A stretch of DNA of 64,000 nt from Glycomyces algeriensis. GTDB taxonomy: Bacteria > Actinomycetota > Actinomycetes > Mycobacteriales > Micromonosporaceae. The stretch is from assembly GCF_027622855.1 (NCBI RefSeq), contig NZ_JAPZVR010000003.1, positions 459,148 to 523,147 of the forward strand, read 5' to 3'. This document shows, one piece after another, positions 10,674-63,999 of this stretch. The notes under the pieces are model-generated. The model was given only the letters and a program-made list of their open reading frames with translations. It was not told the DNA's origin and did not search any database. Within the stretch, counting starts at the first letter, position 1, and each line of letters starts with the position of its first letter. Position numbers and translations under genes: made by a program.

Positions 10674-10695
10674 AATCTAACGTTCGGGTCCGACA
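10674..10695 (-). promoter_or_regulatory. uvrA promoter, RecA-NDp/PafBC-like architecture
   Basis: On the minus strand TGTCGGACC (10695-10687), 7 bp, then TAGATT (10679-10674). This equals TGTC-R-N3-N8-TANNNT spacing of the mycobacterial LexA-independent damage promoter, but with GAC in place of GTG. The predicted transcription start is 10667, the first base of the GTG. The same element precedes each DUF4132 gene. Confidence 0.7.
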
Positions 10696-10712
10696 GTTCT
10701 GGGAGGCCCGCT

Positions 10713-10728
10713 GTTCGAACAAGGGCCG
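10713..10728 (-). promoter_or_regulatory. Upstream element shared with the DUF4132-MoxR operon
   Basis: CGGCCCTTGTTCGAAC on the minus strand lies 17 bp upstream of the TGTCGGACC box. A 15/16 identical copy lies 17 bp upstream of the same box at 53605-53620. It contains the palindrome GTTCGAAC. It does not match the actinobacterial LexA box TCGAAC-N4-GTTCGA. Confidence 0.55.
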
Positions 10729-10806
10729 ACCTACGAGGCTACTCCCCCGCACCGTGGCGTTTCACGCGCCGATGTGACCTTTGCCTCAGCTGAGGGGCAT
10801 GCGACA

Positions 10807-10855
10807 GCGGGCCCGGCCGGGCGGGCGCGTATGCGCTCGCTTCGGCCGGACCCGC
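10807..10855 (-). terminator. Possible terminator after the SH3b/glucosaminidase gene
   Basis: A 13-bp GC stem with one G-U pair (10807-10819 with 10843-10855) and a 23-nt loop lies about 40 nt past the stop at 10898 on the minus strand. A separate perfect palindrome, CCTCAGCTGAGG, lies at 10784-10795. Confidence 0.5.
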
Positions 10856-10897
10856 CCCCGCCGGCAGGAATCGAGCCTTGTGGGTGAGCCGTCCGGT

Positions 10898-11992
10898 TCA
10901 GTCGAACTGGTACAGGTCGTAGTCGTCCATGATCCCGATGAGCTTCGCGGCGTACTCCGGGTCGGTCGCGTAGCCGGCCTTGTGGATCTCCCGCGCGAAG
11001 CGCTTCGGGTCGTCCGCGTGGTCCATGGCCGTGGCGTAGCGGGACCAGTTGGCGAGCAGGTCGCCGTGGTCGCGGTAGGAGTCGGCGACGTCCGCGTAGG
11101 CGCGGAACGTGGCGTTCATGTCGAAGCAGCCGCCGGTGGGGCTGCACTCGAAGGTGGCGTAGTCGCGGCAGCCGATGGCGTGGTCGCCGGGCGAGCCGAA
11201 GCACTTCATGCCGAACAGGTTGTGGTCCTCGCGGGCCAGGGCGCCCTTGCCCCAGCCGGACTCGAGGATCGCCTGCGCGAGGGTCACCGAGGCGGGCACG
11301 CCGGTGGCGCGGTCGCTTGCCTGCGCTGCGGGCGCGTGCGAGCTGATGAAGCCCGCGGTGCCGCCGCGCGGGACCGCGGGCGGGTCCTGGCCGCACCAGG
11401 GCAGCCACGGCTCGCCGGCGCTCCACTTGATGTAGGCGGCGGAGACGTAGCGCTTGTCGCCGATCTTGTACCAGGCGCCGGTGGTGCGGACGGGGCCGTC
11501 GACCTCCTGGCCCCAGGCCTGGCACTCGACGCCGACACCGGCGCCGTTGGCGTAGGTGCCCTGCCGCCCGGCCGAGGAGTTCGCGGCGGCGCGGATGTTG
11601 AGCTCGCCGCCCTTGGTGCTCACGGTGGCGTCGGTGGCGGCCTTGGTGGCGGCCGAGCACCACGGCACGGCCTGCGCGGGCGACCAGGTCACGTAGGCGT
11701 CCGAGATCCAGCGGTCCTTGCCGATCCGCAGCCAGGTGGCGGTGGTGCGCACGTGGCCGCTGATCTCCTCGCCGCGTGCCTTGCAGAACACCTCGGGGTT
11801 CGCGCCCTTGGCGAGCGTGCCGGCGCTCTGCTGGTCGGTGGCCGGGCCTGAGCGGACGTTGAGCGTGCCGCCGTCGGTGGCGATGATCGCACCGGTGATC
11901 TTGGCCTGACCGGGGGCCGCGCCGACGAGAACGGCCCCGGCGGCGAGCGCCAGAACCATAACGAATCGGATGGATATATGGAATACGCCCAT
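10898..11992 (-). CDS. Secreted cell-wall hydrolase: two SH3b domains plus glucosaminidase-like domain
   Basis: A 364-residue exported protein. Residues 1-30 are a signal peptide ending GQA. Two bacterial SH3 repeats follow at about 38-105 (GTLNVRSGPATDQQSAGTL) and 115-190 (GELNIRAAANSSAGRQGTY), each ending in a Trp-Cys motif. Residues 205-360 are a GH73/FlgJ-like lysozyme domain: VPASVTLAQAILESGWGKGALAREDHNLFGMKC with the acid glutamate in ILESGWG, and the MNATFRAYADVADSYRDHG segment. It probably cuts peptidoglycan glycan strands outside the membrane. The start ATG 11992 fits the signal peptide best; ATG 12028 is possible and neither has a clear ribosome site. It is divergent from typA. Confidence 0.85.
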   Translation of the reverse strand: MGVFHISIRFVMVLALAAGAVLVGAAPGQAKITGAIIATDGGTLNVRSGPATDQQSAGTLAKGANPEVFCKARGEEISGHVRTTATWLRIGKDRWISDAYVTWSPAQAVPWCSAATKAATDATVSTKGGELNIRAAANSSAGRQGTYANGAGVGVECQAWGQEVDGPVRTTGAWYKIGDKRYVSAAYIKWSAGEPWLPWCGQDPPAVPRGGTAGFISSHAPAAQASDRATGVPASVTLAQAILESGWGKGALAREDHNLFGMKCFGSPGDHAIGCRDYATFECSPTGGCFDMNATFRAYADVADSYRDHGDLLANWSRYATAMDHADDPKRFAREIHKAGYATDPEYAAKLIGIMDDYDLYQFD

Positions 11993-12127
11993 AAACGGCA
12001 GTGTAGGTAATGAGGGATTTTCTGTCATTGGAAGCGTCAATGTGAACAACCCTCGGCTGAGGGCCGGGAAATCTGGTGTCCGCGATCACCTGGGTTGACG
12101 CCAGGTCCGTCTCGTGCTTAAGCGACA

Positions 12128-14008
<1,881 letters not shown>

Positions 14009-14017
14009 GCGCTGAAC

Positions 14018-14052
14018 GAGAGCGGGCCCGACCGATGGTCGGGCCCGCTCTC
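14018..14052 (+). terminator. Bidirectional terminator between typA and the PAC2 gene
   Basis: A perfect 15-bp stem (GAGAGCGGGCCCGAC and complement) with a 5-nt loop lies between two convergent genes. The stem can extend outward with one mismatch toward CTGAAC/GTTCAG. Confidence 0.85.
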
Positions 14053-14064
14053 GTCGTTCAGGAG

Positions 14065-14979
14065 CTACTTGTCGTCCTCGCCGCGCTGGCGCTCGGCGAG
14101 GAACGTCTCGAAGGCCGCGCCGAGCTCGTCGGCGGTCGGCATCCGGCCGTCCTGGAGCATCTCGTCGGCCTCGGCGGCCTCGGTGAACGAGTCGTACTGC
14201 TCCTCGAGGGTCTTCACCACGTCGGCCACCTCGTCGGACTCGGCGACCTGCTCGGCGATGTCCGAATCCACTTGGGCGCGTTCGATCTCCAAGTCCTCGT
14301 CGGAGGGCAGGTCGAGGCCGGTGGCCTCGCGGATGCCCTCCAGGAGGCGGAGCGTGGCGGCCGGGTAGGTCATCTGCATGACGTAGTGCGGCACGTGCAC
14401 CGAGAGGCCGATCGCGTCGCGACCGGACTCGCCCAGGCGGTACTCGAGGAGGCCCGCGGCGTTGCCGGGGACCGTGACCTCGTTGAACACCGGGCGGTTG
14501 TCGAAGACGAGCTCCGGCCGGGTCGCGTGCACGGTCATGCCGAGCGGCCGGGTGTGCGGCACCCCCATCGGGATGCCCTGGAAGCCCAGCGTGAGCGGCA
14601 CGTGCCAGTGCTCGACCAGGTCCTCCACGGAGTCGACGAAGCGTTCCCACGCGAAGTCGGGCTCAGGGCCGGTCATGAGCAGGAACGGCTTGTCCGAGGC
14701 GTCCCGCATCAGGTACACGACCAACTGGGGGGCCTCGAAGTCGGACCAGCGGTCGATCGAGAACGTGAGATTGGGCCTCCGGGACCGGTAGTCGATGAGC
14801 TGGTCCACGTCGAACGACGCGACCGGGGTGTGCTCGCAGGTCTTGAACAGGTGGTCCACCACCCCGCGACCCGCTTGGCCTGCGTCCATGAACCCGTCGA
14901 GGAAGTGCAGCAGCACCGCTCCCCGCGCGTCGGCCGGTTCCGCCAGGACCTCGCACAGTGCCCAAGGGTCAACGTTCAA
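14065..14979 (-). CDS. PAC2-family protein
   Basis: A 304-residue soluble protein of the PAC2 (proteasome assembly chaperone 2-like) family. It shows LLHFLDGFMDAGQAGRG near the start, then FDVDQLIDYRSRRP, LLMTGPEPDFAWERF and VHVPHYVMQMTYPAA. The C-terminal 60 residues are acidic and helical. The role of these proteins in actinobacteria is not established. I choose a TTG start at 14979 because AAGGAG lies 9 nt upstream, whereas no ATG or GTG fits that site; the open frame otherwise runs to 15072. It lies directly after ftsI in the same direction (89 nt), where murE would be expected. Confidence 0.85.
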   Translation of the reverse strand: MNVDPWALCEVLAEPADARGAVLLHFLDGFMDAGQAGRGVVDHLFKTCEHTPVASFDVDQLIDYRSRRPNLTFSIDRWSDFEAPQLVVYLMRDASDKPFLLMTGPEPDFAWERFVDSVEDLVEHWHVPLTLGFQGIPMGVPHTRPLGMTVHATRPELVFDNRPVFNEVTVPGNAAGLLEYRLGESGRDAIGLSVHVPHYVMQMTYPAATLRLLEGIREATGLDLPSDEDLEIERAQVDSDIAEQVAESDEVADVVKTLEEQYDSFTEAAEADEMLQDGRMPTADELGAAFETFLAERQRGEDDK

Positions 14980-15068
14980 AACAATCGGCTCCTTCTTCCT
15001 TGACGCCTTCGATGCTAACGCCCGGGGCCGATCCCCGATTCCCCCTCGTGGAGAAGTTCGGAGAAGCG

Positions 15069-17267: not shown

Positions 17268-17275
17268 CGACGTCC

Positions 17276-17857
17276 TTACTCTTCGTTCCAGGGCATCTCG
17301 ACGGTCTCGCCGCCGGGAAGGTACAGGTAGGTCACCTTCTCCGGGCGCTCCATGCCGTACAGCTGCGCCTGGGACTGGAGGTACCCGGGCGTGTCGAACT
17401 GCGAGAGCTCGTCGGCGAGCGTCTGCTCGGTCTGGTCGAGCTCGCCCGCCTGGGTCCGCAGCTCCTGCAGCCGGTAGGCGTCCTCGTTGATGACCGTGTT
17501 CAGGACCAGCAGGCCGAAGATGCCGGCGACGACCAGCGCGAGGATGCCGCCGACGAACGCCGGGCGCGGCACCTCCACGGGCTCGGGCGCGGGCTTGGCC
17601 TTCGTCTCGGTGCGGGTGCGCGGCAGGACCACGGTCTCGCGCTGCGGCGCGGCCGGCGTCTCGGCGGGCGCCTCGGGAGGCGCCTCGACCGGGACGGTCG
17701 CAGGCTGGACGGCGAGGTTGCCGTCGAACACAGGCGCGGATTCATCGGCGTCGCCGACGAGGCCGCGGCGTCGCGAGGACGCGGCGCGGGCCCGCCGACG
17801 GGCGGCCTTGATGATCTCGTCGGGGTCGGCTTGCGCGCGACGGTACTGGTCGCTCAT
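17276..17857 (-). CDS. ftsL: FtsL-like cell-division protein
   Basis: A 193-residue bitopic protein: a basic cytoplasmic N-terminus, a Pro/Ala-rich linker (50-100), one membrane segment at 101-120, and an extracytoplasmic Leu/Glu heptad region (RLQELRTQAGELDQTEQTLADEL) followed by the YLQSQAQLYGMERPEKV motif typical of FtsL/DivIC-type proteins. FtsL joins FtsB and FtsQ and activates FtsWI. Assignment rests on topology and on its position between rsmH and ftsI; its ATG overlaps the rsmH stop by 4 nt (ATGA). Confidence 0.8.
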   Translation of the reverse strand: MSDQYRRAQADPDEIIKAARRRARAASSRRRGLVGDADESAPVFDGNLAVQPATVPVEAPPEAPAETPAAPQRETVVLPRTRTETKAKPAPEPVEVPRPAFVGGILALVVAGIFGLLVLNTVINEDAYRLQELRTQAGELDQTEQTLADELSQFDTPGYLQSQAQLYGMERPEKVTYLYLPGGETVEMPWNEE

Positions 17858-18822: not shown

Positions 18823-18839
18823 TCCGCTCACCTCCTTCT

Positions 18840-19271
18840 CTACAGTCCTTCGGGCAGGTCGCCCTCTTCGATGTCGGCGAAGGCCTCTTCCGAGGCCTCC
18901 AGGTAGTCGTCCCAGGTCCGGGTGTTCCAGATCTCCACGCGGTTGGAGGCGCCGATGACCGCGAGGTCGCGGTCGAGGCCGGCGTATTCGCGGAGCCGCG
19001 GGGGGATGGTGACGCGTCCCTGCTTGTCGGGGACCTCGTCGTGGGCGGAGGCGAAGAACACCCGGCTGTAGGCGCGGGCGGTCTTGCTCGACATGGGGGC
19101 GAGTTGGAGCGCTTCGGCGATGCGCGTGAACTCCGCTTCGGGGAACACGTACAGGCAGCGTTCCTGGCCCTTGGTGATCACGACTCCTTCCGCCAGTCCT
19201 TCCCTGAACTTCGCGGGGAGGATGACGCGGCCCTTGTCGTCCAGGCGCGGGTTGTGGGTGCCGAGGAACAT
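18840..19271 (-). CDS. mraZ: Transcriptional regulator MraZ
   Basis: A 143-residue protein with two SpoVT/AbrB-like repeats: [23 protein letters not shown] at the start and [18 protein letters not shown] from about residue 81, each with the DxxGR core. MraZ forms a ring and represses its own dcw operon by binding direct repeats upstream. The start ATG 19271 sits 8 nt after GGGGGGTGG; GTG 19280 would lie inside that ribosome site. Four GTGGRG boxes lie 64-102 bp upstream. Confidence 0.95.
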
Positions 19272-19334
19272 CGGCGCCACCCCCCGTGACTCTCAGGCTG
19301 CGCGGCCGCTCCGACCGCGTTGACAGGGCAATGG

Positions 19335-19373
19335 CCCCACCATTGCGCCCCACCTTACTCCACTCCTCCCCAC
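19335..19373 (-). promoter_or_regulatory. MraZ operator: four GTGGRG direct repeats
   Basis: On the minus strand GTGGGG (19373-19368), GTGGAG (19363-19358) and GTGGGG (19353-19348) recur exactly every 10 bp, and a fourth GTGGGG lies at 19340-19335, 13 bp from the third. Tandem TGGG/GTGG boxes at helical spacing upstream of mraZ are the known MraZ autorepression operator. Confidence 0.8.
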
Positions 19374-44732: not shown

Positions 44733-46790
44733 TCAGTGTAGCTCAGCGGTGACCAGCATTCGGACAGCAGCGGCGGTCCATGCGGCGCATTTCGCGGTGT
44801 CGTCCTCCGCGGCCAACGCTTTGGACAGGTGCACGAAATCGCTTGCGGCCCTTTGGAGTCCGACCCGTTTGAGGTCACCGGCGGCGGCCTCGACGCGGCG
44901 GCGGGACGGTTCGCGGGCGCCGCGCAGGCCCTGGTGCGCGAGGTCGGCGCACACGGTGAGCGCGTCGTCGACGGCGGCGGCGACCGGGTCGGTCGCGGCC
45001 GTCGCGCCGGCGGCGGCCAGCTCGGCGGTGTCGTCGCCGGGCGCGAAGTCGGGGACCACGGGGCCGTCCTCGGTGAGGAGCGCGGTGGGCTCGACGATGA
45101 GCACGCCGCGGTGGCGGTGGACGTGCCCGGCCACGGAGGTGACGCCTTTGAGCAGGGCCTTCTCGGCGGCTTCGAGCGCGCCGGGCGCGGCGCCGCTGTG
45201 GGCGACTCGCAGGATCGCCGAGCCGCCCTTCGGGGCGGCGATGCGGGCTTCGAGGCATTGCGAGGCGGGGTCGTAGCCGAGGAGCTCGGCTTCCTCCACG
45301 GCGATCACGCGCAGGGACTCGGCGGCCACGCGCGGGCGCACCAGCACCGGCGGACGGGCCGCGAGGGTTTCGGCGAGCGCGTCGAGGTCGGTGGCGCGCA
45401 GCGAGTCCGGGAGGTCGTTCCAGGCCAGGCCGAGCGGTAGGACCTGGGTCTTCGCGAGGCGGCCGGTGCCGAGCTTGAGCGCGCGGGCGGCCGTGCGGGA
45501 GGCGGCCTCGGTGACCGTGTTGCCCCCGGCCAGCGCGCCGATCTTGCATCCGGCGAGGCGCTTCGCGGCGATCTCGGCGCCGGTGAGGGTGCCGTCCTGC
45601 GGGACGGGCCAGTCGCGCTGGACCGCGAGGACCATGCCGGTCTCGGGCTGGGCCAGGTAGATCTCGAGGGTGCGGGTGTCGCCCGCGGCGGCGACGCGGG
45701 CGCCGAGGCCGGTGAGGCGTACCAGCGTGAGCGGGGTGGCGGCGGCCTCCTCGCTGCCGAGGACCTGGGCGGTCGGGGTGCCGCCCGCGTGGCGGGCGGC
45801 GCGGGCGCGGGCGGGGAGTTCGGCGAGGAGGGCGGCGAAGCGCAGGGGGTCGTAGGCGGCGGAGCGGTCTTCGTAGCGTTCGAGCTGCTCGATGAGGTCG
45901 TCGACGGCGCCGGCGGGCCAGTGGGCGCGGCGGCGGGTGAGGGTCTTGGATTCGCGTTGGAGGGCGGCGCGCAGGACGCCGTCGGCGCCGACCGCGCCGT
46001 CGAGGAGGACCCGTTCGGCGAGGGCGAGGGTGTCGTCGAGGCCGTCGGTGGCGGTGCCGCCGCCGACGCTGACGGTGGTCGGGGGTTCGGGTGCGTCGCT
46101 GTCGGTTGATGCGCTGTCGGCGGAGGCGCTGTCTGGCGCGGCACTGTCTAGGGCGGCACTGTTGAGGGCGGCACTGTCGAGGGCGGCGCGGAAGGCCCAG
46201 ACGGCGAGGACGATCGCGGTGTCGCGGGCGGGGCCGGTGGCGTCGGTGTGGACGTAGCCGAGGCCGGGGACGAGGAACGTGACGGTGGCCGCGGGGAGTT
46301 CGGCGGCGGCGGGGCGGTCGGGTCCGGGCCAGGTGAGGCGGGCGGTGTAGCCGGCGCGGCGGGTCTGCTCGGCGGCTTTGAGGGCGTAGTGGCCGAGGAC
46401 TTCGCGGAGCGCCTCGTCGGTGATGGCGGCCGGGTTCGCGATCGGCTCGGGGGCCGGGTCGGGGGCGGCGTCCGCTTCAGCTTCGACCGGTTCGGTTGCG
46501 GATGCGGCCTGTACACGCTGGTAGGCCAGGACGGCGCCGACGCGGTGGCGGCATTTGCCGGTGGCGCCGCAGGTGCAGGTGGCGGCTTCGAGGCCGCCGG
46601 CGGCCGGGAGGGCGGTTTCGGCGCCGTCGGGGAAGACGGCGGTGAGGGTGCCGTCGTCGGCGAGCGCGACTTCGGGGACGGCCCCGGCGTCGAGGTCCTT
46701 GGCGGCGCGTTTGACGAGGCCCCGGTTGGCCAGGGCCGCCAGGGCGTCCGTGGTGAGGGCGAGGAGGTCGTGCCTGGGTTCCGCGGTCAC
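44733..46790 (-). CDS. SWIM zinc-finger protein (YehQ-like) of the DUF4132-MoxR system
   Basis: A 685-residue protein with an N-terminal SWIM zinc finger: C72-x-C74-x5-C80-x-H82 (TCTCGATGKCRHR). Residues about 195-225 are a low-complexity Ala/Asp/Ser stretch made of five-residue repeats. The rest is helical with no recognised domain. SWIM fingers bind DNA or protein. The start is GTG 46790, overlapping the VWA stop by 4 nt (GTGA), so it is translationally coupled. In E. coli the SWIM protein YehQ likewise accompanies a MoxR ATPase and a VWA protein. It is the last gene of the operon. Confidence 0.85.
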   Translation of the reverse strand: MTAEPRHDLLALTTDALAALANRGLVKRAAKDLDAGAVPEVALADDGTLTAVFPDGAETALPAAGGLEAATCTCGATGKCRHRVGAVLAYQRVQAASATEPVEAEADAAPDPAPEPIANPAAITDEALREVLGHYALKAAEQTRRAGYTARLTWPGPDRPAAAELPAATVTFLVPGLGYVHTDATGPARDTAIVLAVWAFRAALDSAALNSAALDSAAPDSASADSASTDSDAPEPPTTVSVGGGTATDGLDDTLALAERVLLDGAVGADGVLRAALQRESKTLTRRRAHWPAGAVDDLIEQLERYEDRSAAYDPLRFAALLAELPARARAARHAGGTPTAQVLGSEEAAATPLTLVRLTGLGARVAAAGDTRTLEIYLAQPETGMVLAVQRDWPVPQDGTLTGAEIAAKRLAGCKIGALAGGNTVTEAASRTAARALKLGTGRLAKTQVLPLGLAWNDLPDSLRATDLDALAETLAARPPVLVRPRVAAESLRVIAVEEAELLGYDPASQCLEARIAAPKGGSAILRVAHSGAAPGALEAAEKALLKGVTSVAGHVHRHRGVLIVEPTALLTEDGPVVPDFAPGDDTAELAAAGATAATDPVAAAVDDALTVCADLAHQGLRGAREPSRRRVEAAAGDLKRVGLQRAASDFVHLSKALAAEDDTAKCAAWTAAAVRMLVTAELH
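46111..46185 (-). repeat. Five 15-bp tandem repeats inside the SWIM gene
   Basis: Units start at 46111, 46126, 46141, 46156 and 46171; on the plus strand the last three read GCACTGTCTAGGGCG, GCACTGTTGAGGGCG and GCACTGTCGAGGGCG. They keep the frame and encode AALDS-type pentapeptides. Confidence 0.85.
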
Positions 46791-47971
46791 GTGCCGAGCC
46801 TTTCCGCAACGAATTCGACCAGGTGGGAGGGGGTCATGGCGCCCACATGGGCGCCGACGCCGGAGAGGCGGGCGGCCATCTGGTGGTCGTAGATCGGGTT
46901 CGCGTCCTCGTCGAGGGCGGCGAGGCCGAGCACCTGGGTGCCCTGCTCGCACAGCTGCTTGACGAGGTGCACGAGCCGGGCTTCGCTGCCGCCCTCGTAG
47001 AAGTCGCTGATGAGGGCCACGATGGAGCGGCGCGGGTTGTCGATGAGCCCGGCGCCGTACTCGACGGCGCGGGCGATGTCGGTGCCGCCGCCGAGCTGCA
47101 CCTTCATGAGCAGTTCCACCGGGTCGTCCACATCGGAGGTCATGTCGACCACCGAGGTGTCGAACGCGATGAGGTGGGTCTTCAGGCCCGGGAGGGCGTG
47201 CAGGCAGGCGGCGGTGACGGCCGAGTGGATCACCGAGCCGGTCATGGACCCCGACTGGTCGACCAGGAGCACGAGCTGCCACTGCTCGAGCCGTTTCGAG
47301 GTGCGCGAATGGAACTGCGGGCGCTCGATGGCGACGCGGCGCTCCTCGGGCTGGTAGTGCTTGAGGTTGGCGCGCAGCGTGCGCTTGAGGTCGAAGTCGC
47401 GGGCGCGCCGGTGCCAGCTGGGCTTGCGGGTGCGGCTGCCGGTGAAGACGGTGCGCACCTGCACCGAGAGCTTCTCGACGAGGCGCTGCACGACCTCCTC
47501 GACGATGCGGCGGGCCGCGGCGAGCACCTGCGGGTTCATGAGGTGCTTGGTGCGCAGGACGGCTTTGAGGAGCGACGGGCTGGGCTCGATGCGCTCCAGC
47601 ACGTCCGGGTTGGTGAGGACGTCGTTGATCTTGTAGCGTTCGATCGCGTCGCGTTCGAGCCGCTCGATGGTCTCCTTCGGGAAGAGCCGGTGGATGCCGT
47701 CGAGCCAGTCCACAGTGGTGAGCTGCGAGGGCGAGTCGTCCGCGCCGCGCTGGCCGTCGCTGCGGGCGCCGCCGCGGCGCACGCCGCGCTTGCCGAGGTC
47801 GTCGTCGCGGCTGTAGAGCCAGTCGAGGGCGGCGTCGCGCTGGGCGTTCTCGGCGCTGAGGCCGCCGGTGCAGCTCTCGGCGGCGGGCCCGAGGATGAGC
47901 CGCCACCGTTCGAGGTCGGCACCGCTCGGCTGGGCACCTTGCTGCTGGGCGCTGCTGTGCTGGTCCCCCAT
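46787..47971 (-). CDS. VWA (MIDAS) domain protein, YehP/CoxE-like
   Basis: A 394-residue protein. The N-terminal half is helical and Arg-rich (KRGVRRGGARSDGQRG at about 61-76). The C-terminal half is a von Willebrand A domain starting near 230: LVLLVDQSGSM gives the MIDAS DxSxS (D238, S240, S242), GGGTD gives T297, and LISDFYEGG gives the third loop. VWA partners of MoxR ATPases dock substrates through the metal site. The start ATG 47971 shares a base with the DUF5682 stop (TGATG), and its own stop overlaps the SWIM gene. Confidence 0.9.
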   Translation of the reverse strand: MGDQHSSAQQQGAQPSGADLERWRLILGPAAESCTGGLSAENAQRDAALDWLYSRDDDLGKRGVRRGGARSDGQRGADDSPSQLTTVDWLDGIHRLFPKETIERLERDAIERYKINDVLTNPDVLERIEPSPSLLKAVLRTKHLMNPQVLAAARRIVEEVVQRLVEKLSVQVRTVFTGSRTRKPSWHRRARDFDLKRTLRANLKHYQPEERRVAIERPQFHSRTSKRLEQWQLVLLVDQSGSMTGSVIHSAVTAACLHALPGLKTHLIAFDTSVVDMTSDVDDPVELLMKVQLGGGTDIARAVEYGAGLIDNPRRSIVALISDFYEGGSEARLVHLVKQLCEQGTQVLGLAALDEDANPIYDHQMAARLSGVGAHVGAMTPSHLVEFVAERLGT

Positions 47972-50238
47972 CAGGACTCTCCTCCGAATACGAGGTCTTC
48001 GCGGGCGAGGGCGGTCTCGACGCGGGCTTCGAGGGCCATGGCGGACGCCATGACCACCGGGTTCACCGCGAGCTTCCTGGTGAGGTCGCGGGCGTCGCCG
48101 CCGCCTCGGGCGGCGACGAGGCGTTCGGCGATGAGGCCCCGCTCGCGGGGCGGGAACATCGCGAAGGCCTGGCGCAGTGCGGGCAGCGCGATGAGGAACT
48201 CGTCCTCGTTGAGGTCCGCCACGAGTTCGTCCACTGCGGACACCACGCCCTGCTCCTCTGCGAGGACCTCTTCGCGGGCGACGGCGAAGAGCCCGGCGAG
48301 CCAGTCGCCGAGTCGGACCGGGTCGGCCACGCCCTCGGCGGCTTCGGCCGCGTTCGCGGGCGCGCCGAGCGCCCAGGCGAGGCCGAGGGCCGCGCCGCGC
48401 AGGTCGGGCGGGGCGAGGCCGTCGGTCGCGATGCGCTGGGCGGCAGCGGCGACGGACCTCGCCGGCGGTGTGAGCCCTGGCGCGTGGCGCACGGCGTCGC
48501 GCAAGGCGCGCATCGCGCTGAGGCGGCCGAGGTCGGCCGGGCCGGGCCCGGCGTGGAGGCCTTCGGCGAGCCACAGGATGCGGTGCGCGCACGCGGTGAC
48601 GACGGCGGCGTACAGGTCGCTGCCGGCCGTGCCGAAGAGGTGGTCGTGGCGCCACAGCGCGAGCACGGTCGCCAGCGCGGGGCCGACCTCGCCGAGGTCG
48701 CCGCTGTCGTCCACGGCCGCTTCGACGGACGCGCCGAGCCGGTCGGTCAGGTGCGCCCGGCCGCACAGGGCGGCGTCGAAGAGCAGGGCGGCCAGGGCGT
48801 CGAGCGCCCCTTCGGCGTCGGCGCGCTGCTCGAGCACGGTCTGGGCGGCGTCGCCGAGCGTCGCGCCGAGCGCGCCGGACTCGATGAGCACCGGCAGGCG
48901 GTCGGCGCTCGGCCTGAGCGACCAGTGCTCCTCGGCCGTGACGTCCGCGCCGGCCGTGGGGCCGCTGTCGCGGCGGACCCCCGGGAGGCGCAGCAGCCGC
49001 ATGCAGTGCAGGGCGCGGCTGCGCTCGAGGTCCTTCGGTTTGGCCAGGTCGAGGCGGAGTGCGCCTTCGCCGTCGAGGCCCAGGCGGGCCATCTCGGCTT
49101 CGGCGTCGTCCACGAGCGGCGGCCGGGGCGTGTCCGGGTGGAGGCGGCCCACGCGCTCGCCGGTGAGGGCCGCGGTCATCTCGACGACCACGGGATGCGT
49201 TCCGGCCGTGAGGGAGCCGCGGCGCGTCCACGGCAGGGGCTGCTCGAGGTCGTCGCTGATGAGGGCGCTGGCGAGGCCGTCGAGGAGGTCGGTGCGGCCG
49301 GGCCGCCCGTGGCCGCGCAGGCGCGCCAGGCCCTCGGTGAGGCTCCGCGCGCCGATGAGGTCCGAAGTGGAGACGTGGAGGCCGCGTTCGCGCAGGCGGA
49401 GGGTGATCCGCTGCACGAGCGTGGCCGCGGCCTCCTCGGGCCCGGCCTCCCAGAGGCGCTGGTAGTACTCGGGCGAGGGCATCCCGGACTGGTACCCGGC
49501 GAACGCGTCGAGGCGTTTGAACGAGTAGGGCACGAGGTAGCCGCCGGTCTCGGTGTTTTCGGGCGGCTCGGGGAGGGCCGGGGGCGCGGCGTCGCCCGAC
49601 TCGGCGAGGCGGCGCAGCGCGGGGGCGTGGAAGCCGCCGCAGACCACGAGCACCGGTCCGTCGGTCTCGGCGAGGGTGGACCGGATCCATTGGGCCATAT
49701 ACGCTTCGCGCGCGTTGTCGTGACCGTCCGCGTCGGCCTCGCCGCGCACGAGGTCGAAGTAGTGGTCGAGCCGCTCGGCCAGTCCTTCGGTCTCGGCGAC
49801 CTCGACGAGGTGGTCCCACAGGGCGTCCACATTGTCCACCGCGAACTCGCGGCAGAGCAGGTCGGTCGCGTCGGTGTACCGGCGCTCGGCGTCCGAGTAG
49901 CGGTTCTCGACGCCGTCGAAGGCCCGGTGCCAGGCGGGGAGGTCGATGAACCGCACCTCGGCGCCCGAGCGGCGGCCCTCGGTGAGGGCGACCCACTCGG
50001 GCGAGTAGTCGCACATCGGCGCCCACGTGCGCCGCACCGACAGGTCGGTGCTCGCGTACGAGTAGATCGCCACGGGCAGTTCGTGCTCCAGGGCGAGCTC
50101 GCCGAGGCGATGGTTGAAGTCCGCCGGGCCCTCGATGAGCACGGCGGCGGGCCGCAGCTCCGCGATGCGCGCGGCGACGAGGCGGGCGCAGGCGGGCGAG
50201 TGGTGCCGCACGCCCTGGACGTGGAGGCGCTCGATCAT
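47971..50238 (-). CDS. DUF5682-family protein (YehM-like)
   Basis: A 755-residue protein of unknown activity. The N-terminal 250 residues show GVRHHSPACARLVAARI, VLIEGPADFNH, VRFIDLPAWHRAF, EAYMAQWIRS and VLVVCGGFHAPAL, a pattern of conserved His, Glu and Asp that suggests an enzyme of the EreA/TraB-like type, but this is only a resemblance. The remaining 500 residues are helical. The start ATG 50238 overlaps the MoxR stop (ATGA). In MoxR-VWA loci this family lies between the two, as here. Confidence 0.85.
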   Translation of the reverse strand: MIERLHVQGVRHHSPACARLVAARIAELRPAAVLIEGPADFNHRLGELALEHELPVAIYSYASTDLSVRRTWAPMCDYSPEWVALTEGRRSGAEVRFIDLPAWHRAFDGVENRYSDAERRYTDATDLLCREFAVDNVDALWDHLVEVAETEGLAERLDHYFDLVRGEADADGHDNAREAYMAQWIRSTLAETDGPVLVVCGGFHAPALRRLAESGDAAPPALPEPPENTETGGYLVPYSFKRLDAFAGYQSGMPSPEYYQRLWEAGPEEAAATLVQRITLRLRERGLHVSTSDLIGARSLTEGLARLRGHGRPGRTDLLDGLASALISDDLEQPLPWTRRGSLTAGTHPVVVEMTAALTGERVGRLHPDTPRPPLVDDAEAEMARLGLDGEGALRLDLAKPKDLERSRALHCMRLLRLPGVRRDSGPTAGADVTAEEHWSLRPSADRLPVLIESGALGATLGDAAQTVLEQRADAEGALDALAALLFDAALCGRAHLTDRLGASVEAAVDDSGDLGEVGPALATVLALWRHDHLFGTAGSDLYAAVVTACAHRILWLAEGLHAGPGPADLGRLSAMRALRDAVRHAPGLTPPARSVAAAAQRIATDGLAPPDLRGAALGLAWALGAPANAAEAAEGVADPVRLGDWLAGLFAVAREEVLAEEQGVVSAVDELVADLNEDEFLIALPALRQAFAMFPPRERGLIAERLVAARGGGDARDLTRKLAVNPVVMASAMALEARVETALAREDLVFGGES

Positions 50239-51332
50239 CCCGGCAGCAGGTTCCGCGCCTGGTAGAGCGACTCCCAGTGCGGGCCTTTGCGTTTGGGGGC
50301 CTTCTGCTCGAGGTAGCGGCGCAGGCGCGCGAGGTCCTCGGCGTTGTCCTTCGCCGCGGCCCCGGCCATGCAGTCCACGATGTCCCCGGCGACGGCGGTG
50401 CCGCCGCGCAGGTACCAGGCCTTGATGCCCACGGCGTGCGCGACCGAGACGGCCTCGGCGGTGGACATGACCGCCTGCGGGCGGCCCGAGTTCGCGTCCC
50501 CGGTGCGCAGGTCGCGGAAGACCCGCACGAGCACTTCGAGCACGTCTCGCGACGGCGGCGCGGGCACGCCCGAGCGCGCCAGGGCCGCCGAGGACTCGGC
50601 CTCGACCAGGTCGAGCTCGGTCTTGAAGTCGGCGATCGGGAAGACCGTCTCGAAGTTGAAGCGGCGCTTGAGGGCCGCGCTCATCTCGTTCACGCCGCGG
50701 TCGCGGGTGTTGGCGGTCGCGATGATGTTGAAGCCCTCGCGGGCGAAGACCATCGAGTCGCCTTCGAGCTCGGGGATGGCGAGCACGCGGTCGGACAGGG
50801 GCGAGAGCAGCGAGTCCTGCACCTCGAGCGGGCAGCGGGTGATCTCCTCGAAGCGCACGACCCGGCCCTCGGCCATGCCCCGCAGCAGCGGCGCGGGCAC
50901 GAGGGCGCGCTCGGTGGGGCCCTCCGAGACGAGCAGCGAGTAGTTCCAGGAGTAGGCGATCTGGTCCTCCGTGGTGGAGGCGCCGCCCTGGATCGTGAGG
51001 GTCGAGTCGCCGGAGACGGCGGCCGCGATGAGCTCGGACAGCAGCGACTTCGCCGTGCCGGGCTCGCCGACGAGCATGAGGCCGCGGTTGGTGGCGAGCG
51101 TGACGAGCGCGCGGTCGATGAGCGAGGGGTCGCCCACGAACTTGCGGCTGATGCCGCGCGACTCGTCGCCCACGATGAACGTGCGGGCGGCCTGGAGGCT
51201 CAGGGCCCACCCGGGCGGGCGGGGTGACTCGTCCTCGGCGGCGAGCTTCGCGAGCTCGGTCGCATAGCGTTGCTCGGCGGGCGGGCGCTGGACTTTCGGC
51301 GCGGCGGCGGTGCTCACAAGATCGTTGGTCAT
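50235..51332 (-). CDS. MoxR-type AAA+ ATPase, YehL-like
   Basis: A 365-residue AAA+ ATPase. Walker A is GEPGTAKS at 89-96, Walker B VVRFEE at 158-163, sensor 1 IATANTRD near 204-211, and the arginine finger region is RRFNFETVFPI. MoxR ATPases remodel targets together with VWA proteins. It starts 13 nt after the first DUF4132 gene ends, with no promoter motif of its own, so it is probably read from the DUF4132 promoter at 53566-53587. It is translationally coupled to the DUF5682 gene. Confidence 0.92.
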   Translation of the reverse strand: MTNDLVSTAAAPKVQRPPAEQRYATELAKLAAEDESPRPPGWALSLQAARTFIVGDESRGISRKFVGDPSLIDRALVTLATNRGLMLVGEPGTAKSLLSELIAAAVSGDSTLTIQGGASTTEDQIAYSWNYSLLVSEGPTERALVPAPLLRGMAEGRVVRFEEITRCPLEVQDSLLSPLSDRVLAIPELEGDSMVFAREGFNIIATANTRDRGVNEMSAALKRRFNFETVFPIADFKTELDLVEAESSAALARSGVPAPPSRDVLEVLVRVFRDLRTGDANSGRPQAVMSTAEAVSVAHAVGIKAWYLRGGTAVAGDIVDCMAGAAAKDNAEDLARLRRYLEQKAPKRKGPHWESLYQARNLLPG

Positions 51333-53565: not shown

Positions 53566-53587
53566 AGCATAGGAGGACGGTGCGACA
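53566..53587 (-). promoter_or_regulatory. Promoter of the DUF4132-MoxR-DUF5682-VWA-SWIM operon
   Basis: Minus strand: TGTCGCACC (53587-53579), 7 bp, TATGCT (53571-53566). Same layout as the uvrA promoter and those of the other DUF4132 genes. The predicted start is 53559, giving a 27-nt leader. Confidence 0.68.
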
Positions 53588-53604: not shown

Positions 53605-53620
53605 GTTCGAACAAAGGCCG
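53605..53620 (-). promoter_or_regulatory. Upstream element shared with uvrA
   Basis: CGGCCTTTGTTCGAAC on the minus strand, 15/16 identical to 10713-10728 and at the same 17-bp distance from the TGTCGNACC box. The intervening 17 bp differ, which favours a conserved binding site over a simple duplication. Confidence 0.55.
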
Positions 53621-53747: not shown

Positions 53748-53801
53748 GGCCTTTCGGTTGCACTGGAGAGGCACTGACGCGATGGCCCGGAGACGCGCGG
53801 G

Positions 53802-57122: not shown

Positions 57123-57129
57123 GGGCGAC

Positions 57130-57151
57130 AGCTTAGGAACCGGGTACGACA
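57130..57151 (-). promoter_or_regulatory. Promoter of the second DUF4132 copy
   Basis: Minus strand: TGTCGTACC (57151-57143), 7 bp, TAAGCT (57135-57130). The predicted start is 57123, one base before the ATG. Confidence 0.62.
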
Positions 57152-57175
57152 CGGTGCTCCCGGAGCCACGCACGG

Positions 57176-60100: not shown

Positions 60101-60532
60101 GATCCGGCCGGGGTCCCGGCCGGTGTCGAAGGTGAAGAGCAGCGCGGCGGTCTCGGCGGCGAACGGCAGGCCGTGGTCGGCGGCGAGGCGGGCGAGCATG
60201 GCGCGGGACGCGGCGGTCTTCTGCTCGATGAAGTCGGTGGTGGCCGGGTCACCGCCCAGGTGGTGGCAGATGACGGCGGTGGCGACGGCCGCGCCGGCGG
60301 GGTCGGCGGTCCCGTCGAGGAAGGCGGTGCCGACCGGTCGCAACAGCTCGTGGGGGGCGAGGTCGAGGGCGGCGCGGGCCCAGGTCTCGTGTTCGGCGAA
60401 CAGGAGCCCGCCCGCGTCGGCGTCCGCGGTGACCTTGCGGGCCTTCCCAGTGGTGCGGGTCGGCTTCACGTGCCGTTCCCAGGCTTTCGGGAAGTGGGCC
60501 TGGTCTTCTTGGGGTGCAACCGATGCCGTCAT
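57176..60532 (-). CDS. DUF4132 protein, third copy
   Basis: An 1118-residue paralogue. Its first residues (MTASVAPQEDQ) resemble those of the fourth copy (MTDHVAPQEDQ), and the DNA encoding them shares a 21-bp identical run (60500-60520 with 63915-63935), showing a fairly recent duplication that also carried the promoter. The C-terminal half carries LALATPEYPYAGVEVVAEACDRA, GENQHQRAVKGLKVLGAIGTETAM, DYGPRRFTVRFDEQLRPFVHDGDG and LLADYEILQPFEQLNRPVLAF. The start ATG 60532 has GAAGGA at 7 nt and a 29-nt leader. Confidence 0.88.
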   Translation of the reverse strand: MTASVAPQEDQAHFPKAWERHVKPTRTTGKARKVTADADAGGLLFAEHETWARAALDLAPHELLRPVGTAFLDGTADPAGAAVATAVICHHLGGDPATTDFIEQKTAASRAMLARLAADHGLPFAAETAALLFTFDTGRDPGRIRLRQLRLDDTAWYRTVPDGLLADLRHRIAAASGTEYAPVRDALARRRTTPAERLAVTLLVPDERAWADEVCDEHLDGTPSSHLTQLLATQAATTAGQLDALGPLRIPAYHLETPALANLVKRLGAAAAPIVIDSVKDTHPVGWRRRLHKALAGLPSDAAAAYLVDRLYEPDVMGVANEFAEHYPLRTLRAAAARLPGAGAAAQQRLTLLLRADPGIEAAVPHLDPETRAVVAPLFDALDRTPYADEADLPRLLAAPPWTLKRAKPKAVALEGLEPPRINRVVWAAGEQEAFSRAVYDVSDRGDDRWHEDARRLELRKLPPEQGLRLLSHGPLAIAAPVADRWRARDSLGYWAHYELKRALARFETTVSHEIARAAGLDRNSRDCALPIANLPAARDMADALVRLKSLRATAVEWFDRHAADAAVLLVPDALGADKALRKNAATALAFLVARHGSDLVREAVKHYGDDAVAALEPLVDADPLDPVGVTIPKPVAWAAPPLLPQVLLAGGERALPPSAVEHLITVLALATPEYPYAGVEVVAEACDRASLGRFSLALFEQWRSAGAPSTETWALTQLAHFADDHTVRALAPLVAAWPGENQHQRAVKGLKVLGAIGTETAMRAVQAIADKAKFDAIRWEATEQINAIAANLGLTAEQLADRLLPDFGLGDEAALVVDYGPRRFTVRFDEQLRPFVHDGDGKPRKTLPKPGKHDAETAEDAYRRFTALKKDLRTVAADLVKRLEAAMIDGRRWALEEFREHYVEHALSGHLARRLVWLAEHEGARTGFRVAEDGTYSDVDDETFTPATESTVRLAHPALLGPEAVQAWSTLLADYEILQPFEQLNRPVLAFSEDELATGRLTRFEGAAVAVGPILGLVNRGWMRAQPEGGGVEPGLLYALPGSGYLTVMLQPGIYTGSVSALPDQELTAVCLSRNGDFGTPLAPDGKPLDDIDPVRASEALSGLARITRSTAPQGDR

Positions 60533-60567
60533 CTGCGTCCTTCGTGGGGCCGGGAGTGTCGCGGCCG

Positions 60568-60589
60568 AGGATAGCGATGCGGTGCGACA
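60568..60589 (-). promoter_or_regulatory. Promoter of the third DUF4132 copy
   Basis: Minus strand: TGTCGCACC (60589-60581), 7 bp, TATCCT (60573-60568). A perfect 11-bp inverted repeat, GGGAGTGTCGC at 60552-60562 and GCGACACTCCC at 60584-60594, brackets the -10. Confidence 0.68.
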
Positions 60590-60614
60590 CTCCCGTTCCG
60601 TCACGAACCGGGCA

Positions 60615-63600
60615 CTAGGCGGCGCCGGTGAGACGGGTCAGCGCCGCCAGGACCTCCGAGGCGATGACCGGGTCGATGCCTTGGGGCACTTCGCGGGCGG
60701 GGGTGTCGGTGGCCGTCCACCGGTAGCGCTCGTCCCGCTCGAGTCTGGCGCTCACGATGGTCTGCTCGGGGGCTTCGCCCACATCGCCGATCCAGATGCC
60801 GGGGTCGAGCGACACGACGACGGAGCCGCCGCCGGGCAGCGGGTAGGCGATGCCGGGGGCGACGCCGCCGTCCTCGGGGCTGGCCCGGTTCCAGCCGCGC
60901 TGGGTCAGGCCGAGCACGCGGCCCACGTCGACTTTGGCGCCTTCGAAGCGCTTGAGGCCGCCGGTGGCGAGCTCGTCGTCGTGGAAGGCCAGCACCGGGC
61001 GGCCGAGCTGCTCGAAGGGCTGCAGCACCTCGTAGTCGGCGAGGACCTCGGCCCAGGCCGCGGTCTCGGCGCCGAGGTGGACGGGGTGCGCGAGGCGGAT
61101 GCGGGCGGTCGCGTCGAGGTCGACGGTGTCGTCCTCGATGTCGCTGAAGGTGCCGTCCTCGGCGATGCGGAACCCGAACCGGGAACCGCCGGTGTCGGCG
61201 AGCCAGACGAGGCGGCGGGTCAGGTGCCCGGTGAGCGGGTGCTCGACGAAGTGGCGGCGGAACTCGTCCACGGACCAGTCGCGGCCGGAGACCATGGCCG
61301 CCTCGAACCGGCGCACCTGGTCGGCGGCGACGCTGCGCAGCTCCTTCTTCAACGCACTGAACCGCTGGTACGACTCGGCGGCGATCTCGGGGTCGTCCTT
61401 CGCTCCGGGTTTGGGGAGCGCCTTGCGGGGCTTGCCGTCGCCGTCGCGGACGAACGGCTTGAGCTGCTCGTCGAAGGCGACGGTGAACTGCCGCGGCCCG
61501 TAGTCGAGGACGAGCGCGGCCGCCTCGCCGAGCCCGAAGTCGGGCACGAGGCGGTCGGCGAGCTGCTCGCGGCTCAGCCCGAGGCCTTCGGCGATGCGGG
61601 TGATCTGGCGGCCCGCCTCCTCCTTGAGCGCCTTGAACTTCACCTTCTCAGCGATGGTCTGGATGGCGCGCAGCGCCGTCTCGGAGCCGATCGCGCCCAG
61701 CACCTCCAGCCCGGTGACGGCGCGCTTGTGCTGGCTCTGGCCGGGCCATTCGCGGATGCGCGGGGCGAGGTCCCACACGGTCGCGTCGTCGGCGAAGTGC
61801 ATGAGCTGCGTGAACGCCCAGGAGTCCTTCGAGGGCGCGCCGACCGTGAGCCACCGGTCGAACACGGCCCGGCTGAACCGGGTGAGGGAGGCGCGGTCGC
61901 AGGCCTCGGCGACCACGTCGACGCCGCGGTACTCGTAGTCGGGGGTGCCCAGGGCCAGCACAGTCAGCAGGTGCACGACGGACTCGGCCGGGAGCGCCCG
62001 CTCGCCGCCCTTGAGGAGCACCTGCGGCAGGATCGCCGGCGAGGCCCAGCTGCCGGGCTTCGAGACTTTGACGGGCGAGTCCAGCGGGTCGATGTCGAGC
62101 AGCGCCGTGACCGCTTGCGCCGCTTCGGGGCCGAACGCCTCGGCCTCGGCCGCGACGGCGTCGCGGCCGTGGCGCGTGGCGAGGAGGGCCAGCGCGGTCG
62201 CCGCGTATTCGCGGCGCTTCTTGTCCGCGCCGAGCGCGTCCGGCACGAGGTAGGGGACGGCGGCGAGCCCGTGCCGGCCGAACCAGCGGACGGCGCTGGA
62301 CCGGGCGCCCTTCAAGCGGGCCAGCCGTTCGGCCGCGATGCGCGCGGCGGCCTGGTTGAGGATCGGACCGGGGAGTTCGAGGCAGGTGTGCTCGGTCGCG
62401 GGGAGGACGAGCACGCGGTCGATCACGCGCTCGCCGAAGCGGGCCAGGACGCGCTGGAGCTGGATCTGGCTGCCGGGGAGGACGTCGGGATCCCAGTGAT
62501 CGAGGAGCTTCTCGGCGTGCTCGGCCCGGCCGTGCCCGAGGAAGGAGACCAGGAGCCAGTGGTCGAGTTCGATGGTCTTGATGTCGTGCCAGTACTCCTC
62601 GTCGGGTTCGTACATGCCGGTGACGCGGCTCCAGGCCTCGCGTTCGCCCGGTTCCCAGGTCAAGTGGGCGGCGGCGGGCGCTTCGAGGCCTTCGATGACC
62701 ACGGGTTTCACCTTGGGCCGCTTGCGGGTCCAGGGCGGGGCGACGAGCAGCGGCGGCAGGTCCTCGGGGGCGGCGTCGGGGACGCGGCCGGAGGTGTCGA
62801 GCAGGTCGGCGAGGGCCGCCCGGTCGGCGTCGTCGAGGTGGGCCCGGTGGGCGGGGGCGATCATTCCGGCGATGGCGGTGAGCCAGGTGCGCAGGTCGTC
62901 GGACGCGTCGGGGGCGAGGCGGGCGGCGGTGCGCAGGGCGCGCACGGGGTAGCGGGAGGCGGCCTCGGTCGCGGCCTCCCACACGTTCGGCCAGGTGAGG
63001 CGCGCGAAGATGAACGCGGTGGCCTCGTCGCTCGGGACCATCGCGATCGCCCGGTACAGGAGCTTGCGGAAGTCGTCGTTGTAGTGGTGCGCGGCCTTGT
63101 CGGTCTCGAGCATCACGGGCAGTGCGTCGGTGCCGAGGCCGCCGAGGGCGGCGGCCATGACGTCGATCTCCATCCGGTAGTAGCTCAGGAGCGTGGGCAT
63201 GCCCGCCGCGCGCGGGTGCACGGGGTCGCTGGCGGAGTGCCAGAAGAGGAGGTCGGCCTGGCCGGCGTAGGCCCGGTTCTTGCTGAACTCGATGCAGGCC
63301 TCCAGGACCCAGTCGGTCTCGGTCGGGAGCAGGACCATGGCGGCCGAGCGCTTGGCCCCGGAGTCGCGGTGGCCGGCGACGGCCGCGACGACCTCGGCGT
63401 ACGCCTCGTCCGAGACGGACGCGAGGAGCGAGCGCACGGCGGCGAGGTCGCCGTGGTGGAGTTCGTGCACGGCCGTGTCGGGGTGCGCGACGTCGTGCTC
63501 GAAGATCGTGCGCTTCGCGATGGCCTCGCCGCCGTAGTGGCCGCTGGTCGTCGGGCAGATCGCGAGGCGCTCGACGGCGGCGGCCGTCGCGAACGGCAGG

Positions 63601-63947
63601 CCGTGCTCGTGCAGCCAGCGGTCGAACTCCGGTCGCAGGAACGAGTCGCGGGAGCGCCCCTGGTAGTCGAGGATCAGGGCCGCGACGGCGGCGGCGCCGC
63701 GCGGGTTCGGCTCCCCGTCGAGGTACGCCTGGGCGTCCGCGGCGTAGCCCTCGTTCCCGGGCAGCGCGAGCGCGGCCTGGATCTTCTCGTGGCGGGCGGC
63801 GATCTTCTGGCGCTGGGCCGTGAACGTGGCGGGGTCGGCGGGCGTGAACGGCTTCCCGGTGCGCCGGCCGCGCCAGGGCAGGAGCCTCGCGGCCCACGCG
63901 GCCGGGAGCTGGATCTGGTCTTCTTGGGGTGCAACGTGATCCGTCAT
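60615..63947 (-). CDS. DUF4132 protein, fourth copy
   Basis: A 1110-residue paralogue of the third copy. It has the same order of regions: MTDHVAPQEDQ start, helical N-terminal half, PWTRKRPKVKPVVIEGLEAP, then LALGTPDYEYRGVDVVAEACDRAS, GQSQHKRAVTGLEVLGAIGSETAL, LGLSREQLADRLVPDFGLGEAAA, DYGPRQFTVAFDEQLKPFVRDGDG and LADYEVLQPFEQLGRPVLAF. The start ATG 63947 has GAAGGA at 7 nt and a 24-nt leader. The array may continue past the window edge. Confidence 0.88.
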   Translation of the reverse strand: MTDHVAPQEDQIQLPAAWAARLLPWRGRRTGKPFTPADPATFTAQRQKIAARHEKIQAALALPGNEGYAADAQAYLDGEPNPRGAAAVAALILDYQGRSRDSFLRPEFDRWLHEHGLPFATAAAVERLAICPTTSGHYGGEAIAKRTIFEHDVAHPDTAVHELHHGDLAAVRSLLASVSDEAYAEVVAAVAGHRDSGAKRSAAMVLLPTETDWVLEACIEFSKNRAYAGQADLLFWHSASDPVHPRAAGMPTLLSYYRMEIDVMAAALGGLGTDALPVMLETDKAAHHYNDDFRKLLYRAIAMVPSDEATAFIFARLTWPNVWEAATEAASRYPVRALRTAARLAPDASDDLRTWLTAIAGMIAPAHRAHLDDADRAALADLLDTSGRVPDAAPEDLPPLLVAPPWTRKRPKVKPVVIEGLEAPAAAHLTWEPGEREAWSRVTGMYEPDEEYWHDIKTIELDHWLLVSFLGHGRAEHAEKLLDHWDPDVLPGSQIQLQRVLARFGERVIDRVLVLPATEHTCLELPGPILNQAAARIAAERLARLKGARSSAVRWFGRHGLAAVPYLVPDALGADKKRREYAATALALLATRHGRDAVAAEAEAFGPEAAQAVTALLDIDPLDSPVKVSKPGSWASPAILPQVLLKGGERALPAESVVHLLTVLALGTPDYEYRGVDVVAEACDRASLTRFSRAVFDRWLTVGAPSKDSWAFTQLMHFADDATVWDLAPRIREWPGQSQHKRAVTGLEVLGAIGSETALRAIQTIAEKVKFKALKEEAGRQITRIAEGLGLSREQLADRLVPDFGLGEAAALVLDYGPRQFTVAFDEQLKPFVRDGDGKPRKALPKPGAKDDPEIAAESYQRFSALKKELRSVAADQVRRFEAAMVSGRDWSVDEFRRHFVEHPLTGHLTRRLVWLADTGGSRFGFRIAEDGTFSDIEDDTVDLDATARIRLAHPVHLGAETAAWAEVLADYEVLQPFEQLGRPVLAFHDDELATGGLKRFEGAKVDVGRVLGLTQRGWNRASPEDGGVAPGIAYPLPGGGSVVVSLDPGIWIGDVGEAPEQTIVSARLERDERYRWTATDTPAREVPQGIDPVIASEVLAALTRLTGAA

Positions 63948-63977
63948 TGATGTCCTTCGTCGGGAGTGTCGTCCACG

Positions 63978-63999
63978 ACGATAGGCCCGCGGTGCGACA
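63978..63999 (-). promoter_or_regulatory. Promoter of the fourth DUF4132 copy
   Basis: Minus strand: TGTCGCACC (63999-63991), 7 bp, TATCGT (63983-63978). The predicted start is 63971. The window ends one base upstream, so any upstream element cannot be seen. Confidence 0.68.

Follow-up and report, generated by a model that had tools for sequence, protein, structure and literature searches.

We analysed a 64,000-nucleotide (nt) stretch of the Glycomyces algeriensis genome (contig NZ_JAPZVR010000003.1, positions 459,148 to 523,147; hereafter the window), which carries uvrA and, on the same strand, four DUF4132 genes followed by genes for a MoxR-type ATPase, a DUF5682 protein, a VWA_CoxE protein and a YehQ-like protein (Table 1). 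The motif TGTCGNACC-N7-TANNNT, called the ACC box here after the three letters that follow TGTCGN, occurs exactly five times in the window, ahead of uvrA and of each DUF4132 gene. It very probably represents a promoter of the PafBC type that places uvrA and the DUF4132-MoxR cassette in the DNA damage regulon.

All five matches lie ungapped on the minus strand, like the genes behind them, at the positions where an earlier note on this DNA had placed them, and dinucleotide shuffles of the window (n = 100) gave no match in any case. The gap between the last base of the -10 element and the start codon is 6 nt for uvrA, which starts with GTG, and 33, 7, 35 and 30 nt for the sites at 53566, 57130, 60568 and 63978, respectively. 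The RecA-NDp/PafBC promoter of mycobacteria is printed as tTGTCRgtg-8 nt-TannnT (PMC5656591). The window sites share with it the TGTC core, the distance of 12 nt to the -10 element, the TANNNT sequence, the direction, the location at or near the start codon and the repair-gene targets, and the identical spacing asserted in the earlier note is therefore present at the sites. They differ in having ACC after TGTCGN instead of GTG: R-G-T-G follows TGTC at none of the five, although g, t and g stand in lower case in the printed consensus. The departure from the printed consensus claimed earlier is real in this respect, but the uvrA site, TGTCGG-N10-TANNNT, already fits a relaxed PafBC motif of M. 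tuberculosis (TGTCGG/TGTCAG/TGTCAC-N10-TANNNT; PMC8151990). This relaxed motif also covers the usual DUF4132 box of Lentzea, TGTCAGACCC, but not the TGTCGT and TGTCGC sites, which are the boxes found ahead of the DUF4132 genes. We refer to these four boxes as PafBC-type in the sense of putative rather than proven members.

Table 1 Promoter boxes and genes of the uvrA and DUF4132-MoxR regions; positions are those of the window.
Feature	Position	Strand	Evidence
PafBC-type promoter of uvrA (putative), TGTCGGACC-N7-TAGATT, leaderless	10674..10695	-	pattern match
uvrA, UvrA interaction and DNA-binding domains	7689..10667	-	Pfam, first 498 codons scanned
Box TGTCGCACC-N7-TATCGT of the cassette's first DUF4132 gene	63978..63999	-	pattern match
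DUF4132 gene 4, 1110 aa	60615..63947	-	Pfam
Box TGTCGCACC-N7-TATCCT	60568..60589	-	pattern match
DUF4132 gene 3, 1118 aa	57176..60532	-	Pfam
Box TGTCGTACC-N7-TAAGCT	57130..57151	-	pattern match
DUF4132 gene 2, 1106 aa	53802..57122	-	Pfam
Box TGTCGCACC-N7-TATGCT	53566..53587	-	pattern match
DUF4132 gene 1, 728 aa	51346..53532	-	Pfam
MoxR-type AAA+ ATPase (AAA_5), 64% identical to E. coli YehL, 13 nt past the stop of DUF4132 gene 1	50235..51332	-	
DUF5682 protein, Pfam family of E. coli YehM, start codon approximate	47971..50241	-	
VWA_CoxE protein, 58% identical to E. coli YehP, start codon approximate	46787..47977	-	
YehQ-like protein, 31% identical to E. coli YehQ, start codon approximate	44733..46787	-	

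The search was extended to the whole genome (5.59 Mb in 34 contigs). Here, counts come from pattern searches controlled by the reversed pattern, and not from a weight matrix or a complete set of gene calls; gene starts were judged from open frames and codon-position base composition, and some genes were named by eye. The ACC box matched 46 times (16 forward and 30 reverse, including the five in the window), compared with no match when read backwards; its variable position was G at 21, T at 20 and C at 5 sites. A coding-like frame on the same strand started within 60 nt at 22/46 sites, and at 14 of these it started at +6 or +7, a leaderless arrangement with the start codon where RNA synthesis from this -10 element would set in; loci L011 and L029 have a further in-frame start at 0 or +1. 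The gene-proximal sites include uvrA, uvrB, recO, dinB and seven DUF4132 genes, which is favourable to the proposed enrichment ahead of repair genes. Pfam domains behind the genomic sites were UvrB, RecO, an RNase_T exonuclease, an IMS polymerase (dinB), UvrA, an OrfB/TnpB-like protein and a KilAC domain protein, with no Pfam match for the protein at L021. BLAST comparisons revealed a UvrA paralogue at L014 (32-50% identity in pieces) and additional DUF4132 proteins at L004, L010 and L029 (best 31-40% identity to those of the window), whose N-terminal fragments had no Pfam match. Farther from its ACC box, dnaN starts at +180.

The mycobacterial form TGTCRGTG-N8-TANNNT (GTG box) was found nine times in the same genome and not once reversed. 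GTG boxes precede recA (+7), the genes for uracil-DNA glycosylase (UDG; +7), a SRAP protein, the proteasomal ATPase (+59) and an Imm51 protein (+7), as well as YbjN, DUF1801 and alpha/beta hydrolase genes and one unscanned small frame. The gene recA, which the earlier note had named among the repair genes to be expected behind the motif, does have a PafBC-type box, but in the GTG instead of the ACC form. With recA and UDG behind the one form and uvrA, uvrB, recO and dinB behind the other, both serve repair genes in a single genome. The bare pattern TGTC-N12-TANNNT matched 141 times versus 51 times reversed, indicating that further box forms exist. PafB and PafC themselves are encoded in tandem (HTH_PafC, WYL and WCX domains), and the genome contains seven WYL matches overall.

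Next, we read the genes behind the ACC box in other genomes, using 60 sites from ten genomes and 30 of the 55 sites from ten others in which ACC prevails. A coding-like frame started within 150 nt at 87/90 sites, and the first such start fell at +5 to +9 at 41/90, whereas shifting the anchor 10 to 40 nt in one direction or the other left 0 to 14 by the same rule. Pfam was run on 32 of the 87 proteins, chosen as likely products of repair genes, and 26 of them had domains known from proteins of repair, recombination or replication; the remainder comprised one Pup, one ribosomal protein S6 and four without a match. The domains included RecA, UvrA, UvrB, UvrC, SbcD, RecC, RarA, UDG, IMS, LigA, DnaB and DnaX, among others, while RadA, exonuclease III and one SbcD were named by eye within broader families. 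The same genes recur behind the box in unrelated genera, so that recA, uvrA, uvrB, uvrC, sbcD, radA, recC, ligA, rarA and udg extend the enrichment before repair genes beyond Glycomyces.

Across a sample of 296 Actinomycetota genomes, the ACC form was present in 145 and the GTG form in 155, and 189 encoded a PafB relative (E up to 1e-10). In the 188 genomes with PafB (our own left out), ACC boxes numbered 363 versus 49 reversed and GTG boxes 871 versus 66. The corresponding values for the 107 genomes without PafB were 44 versus 52 and 81 versus 70, and two or more ACC sites occurred in 83/188 genomes with PafB versus 6/107 without. Both box forms are thus tied to PafB, being above the control overall only where it is found.

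Within the family of G. algeriensis (41 genomes), hand sums gave 568 ACC boxes versus 18 reversed and 308 GTG boxes versus 34. ACC led in 29 genomes and GTG in 9, with 3 ties, and the ACC motif occurred in 40/41 genomes. Together with the 145/296 genomes of the phylum sample, this rules out an ACC form special to the genus. The notion of a lineage variant, as put forward in the earlier note, holds in so far as the preferred form follows lineage, but not as a form of its own, since ACC occurs across Actinomycetota beside GTG in the same genome. The variable position also has its preferences: in ten genomes of the families f31 and f47 (our numbering) it was C at 50/55 sites by hand count. Family f47 had 2 GTG and 35 ACC sites in 10 genomes; in ACC-dominated lineages like this one, the mycobacterial motif used as a query retrieves hardly any sites. 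Conversely, eight genomes of family f4 contained 405 GTG and 40 ACC sites versus 8 and 7 in the reversed controls. We take f4 as Streptomyces and f2 as Mycobacteriaceae, a reading of our own based on the PafB sequence among others. A passage in PMC9380542 leaves a PafBC-type response in Streptomyces open and describes the M. smegmatis motif as seemingly not conserved in S. venezuelae; in view of the f4 counts, this question looks testable at once. Among the literature we recognised no paper on the ACC form by its title, but the form may still have been printed.

The DUF4132 genes allowed a second comparison. Their nearest named relatives are from Glycomyces (best 70% identity, G. niveus), and the sample comprised 78 DUF4132-like frames from 43 named loci, 74 actinobacterial and 4 others; counts refer to frames, not genes, as a few overlap within one locus and at least one was counted twice owing to the overlap of L089 and L091 on a shared contig. 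At 42/78 frames, TGTC-N12-TANNNT was followed by an in-frame start no more than 60 nt away (the reversed motif at 1/78); a first count, in which long open frames concealed the actual start, had given 39/78. All 42 belonged to the 74 actinobacterial frames, with 0/4 among the non-actinobacterial ones, and none of 61 other coding-like frames in these loci had the box. By genus, the box was seen at 12/16 frames in Glycomyces, 20/36 in Lentzea, 6/13 plus 1/2 (strain NRRL S-836) in Nocardia, 2/4 in Kibdelosporangium, 1/2 in Actinomadura and 0/1 in Thermomonospora. Lentzea boxes mostly read TGTCAGACCC, while Nocardia has TGTCGGTC, TGTCGGTG and similar sequences, showing that the DUF4132 box varies by lineage with TGTC, spacing and -10 element constant.

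Besides the promoter, the cassette itself has relatives in other phyla. The order DUF4132, MoxR, DUF5682, VWA_CoxE and YehQ-like on one strand is that of a YehI-L-M-P-Q cassette, and by gene order, families and identity (Table 1) the Glycomyces cassette is orthologous to E. coli yehI-yehL-yehM-yehP-yehQ. The YehQ-like protein had no Pfam match, SWIM included, and its identity to YehQ extends over 591 aligned positions. Glycomyces differs from E. coli in having four DUF4132 genes, each with a box of its own, where E. coli has one and the pseudogene yehH; in lacking yehK; and in its PafBC-like box, in place of which E. coli has the LexA-like AACTGGATAAAATTACAGGG. The latter, which we take to be the published molR site, occupies the stretch 8-27 nt ahead of the yehF start (7 nt between), yehF being the gene that heads the cluster, and has one mismatch in CTGT-N8-ACAG; shuffles of the 3 kb of E. 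coli sequence gave on average 0.22 LexA-like matches versus 2 observed. In Deinococcus, the DUF4132 protein DRA0166 rises after mitomycin C in the wild type, but not in an irrE deletion (PMC8533742). DRA0166 is among the products of the DdrO regulon genes drA0165-drA0166 and dr2173, which encode DUF4132 and WGR proteins under damage control, with DdrO, IrrE and another DNA motif instead of the PafBC-type box of Glycomyces. One protein family under three regulators in three phyla is the strongest outside support for a role in the damage response, and the DUF4132-MoxR-VWA cassette, whose function is unknown, thereby gains a likely shared condition of expression.

Altogether, these data suggest the following scenario, which supports by inference the earlier proposal of a DUF4132-MoxR system in the damage regulon, with PafB and PafC encoded in the genome and repair genes sharing the box. 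The promoter would consist of the -26 box and the -10 element and would be read by the housekeeping sigma factor, with PafBC, activated by single-stranded DNA, sitting between sigma region 4 and the box. In G. algeriensis, ACC outnumbers the mycobacterial GTG as the 3' half of this box. PafBC binding would then induce uvrA, the four DUF4132 genes and the MoxR-DUF5682-VWA-YehQ genes behind them upon DNA damage, and the cassette would probably contribute to damage survival.

Several points weigh against this scenario. It is built on sequence, from which we infer both binding and expression, and ClgR has also been proposed for the mycobacterial motif (PMC5656591). Some genes behind the ACC box are not repair genes, namely ABC exporters (L007, L018), glyoxalase-like, YCII and DUF1697 genes, and ubiD at +130. 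The scan found no box at 32/74 actinobacterial DUF4132 frames, many of which are further tandem copies. Genomes with and without PafB differ in descent, so that their comparison is not independent and any p-value from it is weakened, and of the six genomes without PafB that contain two or more ACC sites, one has nine. In E. coli, AACTGGATAAAATTACAGGG has 7/20 mismatches to a LexA consensus that we typed ourselves, and metG contains an internal match that is just as weak. Finally, with ten strict and about six look-alike copies of an intergenic repeat carrying it (see below), the box is more than a promoter of genes.

What sets the form of the box may be sought in PafB, whose helix-turn-helix engages the -26 motif (PMC11804915) and whose putative recognition helix projects Arg44 and Arg48 outwards (PMC6789036). 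Alignment to 6SJ9 placed these residues in G43-R44-M45-F-E-R48 (hand-counted). We fetched 109 PafB loci and removed nine without a clear helix (four f4, two f8, one f28 and two f44) and two Gln genomes of our own family, which left 98; ties between the box forms were counted as ACC not leading. Residue 43 was Arg in 39/98 genomes, with ACC leading in 34 and GTG in 2, whereas ACC led in 8 of the 59 genomes with another residue. By family, ACC led in 11/12 Arg groups versus 1/18 others (Fisher p 2.5e-6), and in the 37 clear-helix genomes fetched after the rule had been seen, it led in 14/17 with Arg versus 3/20 others. The four dropped f4 helices, read separately, had N-R-M in three cases and S-R-M in one. 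Counting against such a code, Lys43 goes with either form and the two genomes of our own family that were examined have Gln43-Lys45. The PafB tree implies a minimum of 14 changes in the leading form and of 6 in residue 43, many of the former without a change of the residue. A descent-corrected test offered four independent pairs on well-supported branches (six on all) and was not significant (p 0.25), with on average 2.7 pairs agreeing, 0 disagreeing and 1.3 not differing. We regard residue 43 as a lead to a possible determinant of the box form. It is conceivable, if somewhat doubtful, that the GTG/ACC half of the -26 box switched several times within Actinomycetota in step with PafB residue 43 and that the cassette, which is connected to DdrO in Deinococcus and probably to LexA in E. 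coli, came under a third, unrelated regulator. The proposed code (A. aurescens numbering) would assign Ser, Asn, Asp, Glu, Gly and Lys43 to GTG, Arg43 to ACC and Gln43-Lys45 to our own family. If true, this cis-trans code would make the LexA-independent damage regulon predictable from the sequence of any actinobacterial genome.

An unlikely alternative is that another WYL regulator reads the ACC form while PafBC keeps the GTG form. The two forms do occur side by side in a single genome, each ahead of its own set of genes, and five WYL proteins are encoded besides PafB and PafC, one of them about 5.4 kb away from the L014 box, which precedes a UvrA-like gene. However, box position and spacing are identical for both forms, and the ACC-rich families f31 and f47 have PafB in the genomes looked at and carry ACC at recA, uvrA and uvrB. 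A genome of our own family (G204) has ACC at recA itself. The preference moreover follows PafB lineage and helix residue, an association that is not significant after descent correction.

The many leaderless sites and the non-repair targets would also fit a promoter with no link to damage, either one read by an alternative sigma factor or a strong leaderless promoter of general use. We consider this very improbable, as the box is followed by repair genes in genome after genome and the motif does not rise above its control overall in genomes where no PafB was found.

The intergenic repeats raise a further possibility, that of a mobile element with copies before genes by chance. At 10/46 sites, GGGGTCC follows 6-9 nt past the -10 element, often inside a short hairpin (strict repeat; L304, L306, L308, L310, L312, L314, L315, L036, L039 and L041). 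About six further sites resemble relaxed copies by eye, giving 10, perhaps 16, of 46, and a repeat family comprising all 46 sites is rejected accordingly. Five copies of the strict repeat occur in one other searched member of the genus, G305 (L305, L307, L309, L311 and L313), and none in 39 other genomes of the family. At 8/10 strict repeats the next downstream coding-like frame is on the opposite strand, with its end no more than 160 nt away, but a clearly convergent gene pair flanks only about half of them. Rfam at gathering cut-offs detected nothing at the repeats in 12 loci, the only hit being a thiamine pyrophosphate (TPP) riboswitch elsewhere in L305. Small RNAs induced by damage, terminator-like elements and mobile repeats are all conceivable identities, between which folding and Rfam do not decide. 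Although the intergenic copies share the GGGGTCC hairpin, chance copies of a mobile repeat are the least probable explanation and already largely refuted for the gene-proximal sites, as the strict repeat is at 0/22 of these and in 2/41 family genomes (both of this genus) versus 40/41 for the motif, and the gene-proximal copies preserve their distance to the start codon and in unrelated genera are again found ahead of the same genes.

In addition to the PafBC-type box, the palindrome GTTCGAAC recurs at a fixed distance, exactly 17 nt, upstream of three boxes: that of uvrA (10713..10720), the one at 53566 ahead of DUF4132 gene 1 (53605..53612) and the GTG-form box of recA (L059). It was present within 80 nt at 4/54 sites of the genome versus about 0.2 expected from its frequency in these loci, the fourth case (L008) having a different spacing, and at 0/89 sites in other genomes. 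GTTCGAAC makes up a second shared element, which may be a half site of LexA or serve another regulator. In the 150 nt upstream of each window box, the full SOS box CGAAC-N4-GNNCG did not occur at any of the five; it was found within that distance at 2/46 genomic ACC sites (L015, L019), both outside the window.

Further observations concern single loci. L018 and L034 (C13 and C31 of the genome) both hold a box and an ABC exporter and are identical over 3,022 bases compared, reflecting either a duplication or an assembly effect. TnpB-like OrfB genes start 7 nt past an ACC box in two distant lineages (L003 by Pfam; L179 of family f47 by eye), an insertion sequence-borne protein behind a damage-type promoter. 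Finally, pup follows an ACC box in four large Streptomyces-like genomes (L106, L111, L117 and L152; one by Pfam, three by eye), which is of note because PafBC lies in the Pup-proteasome locus; the Pup pathway may thus be under the control of its neighbour PafBC.

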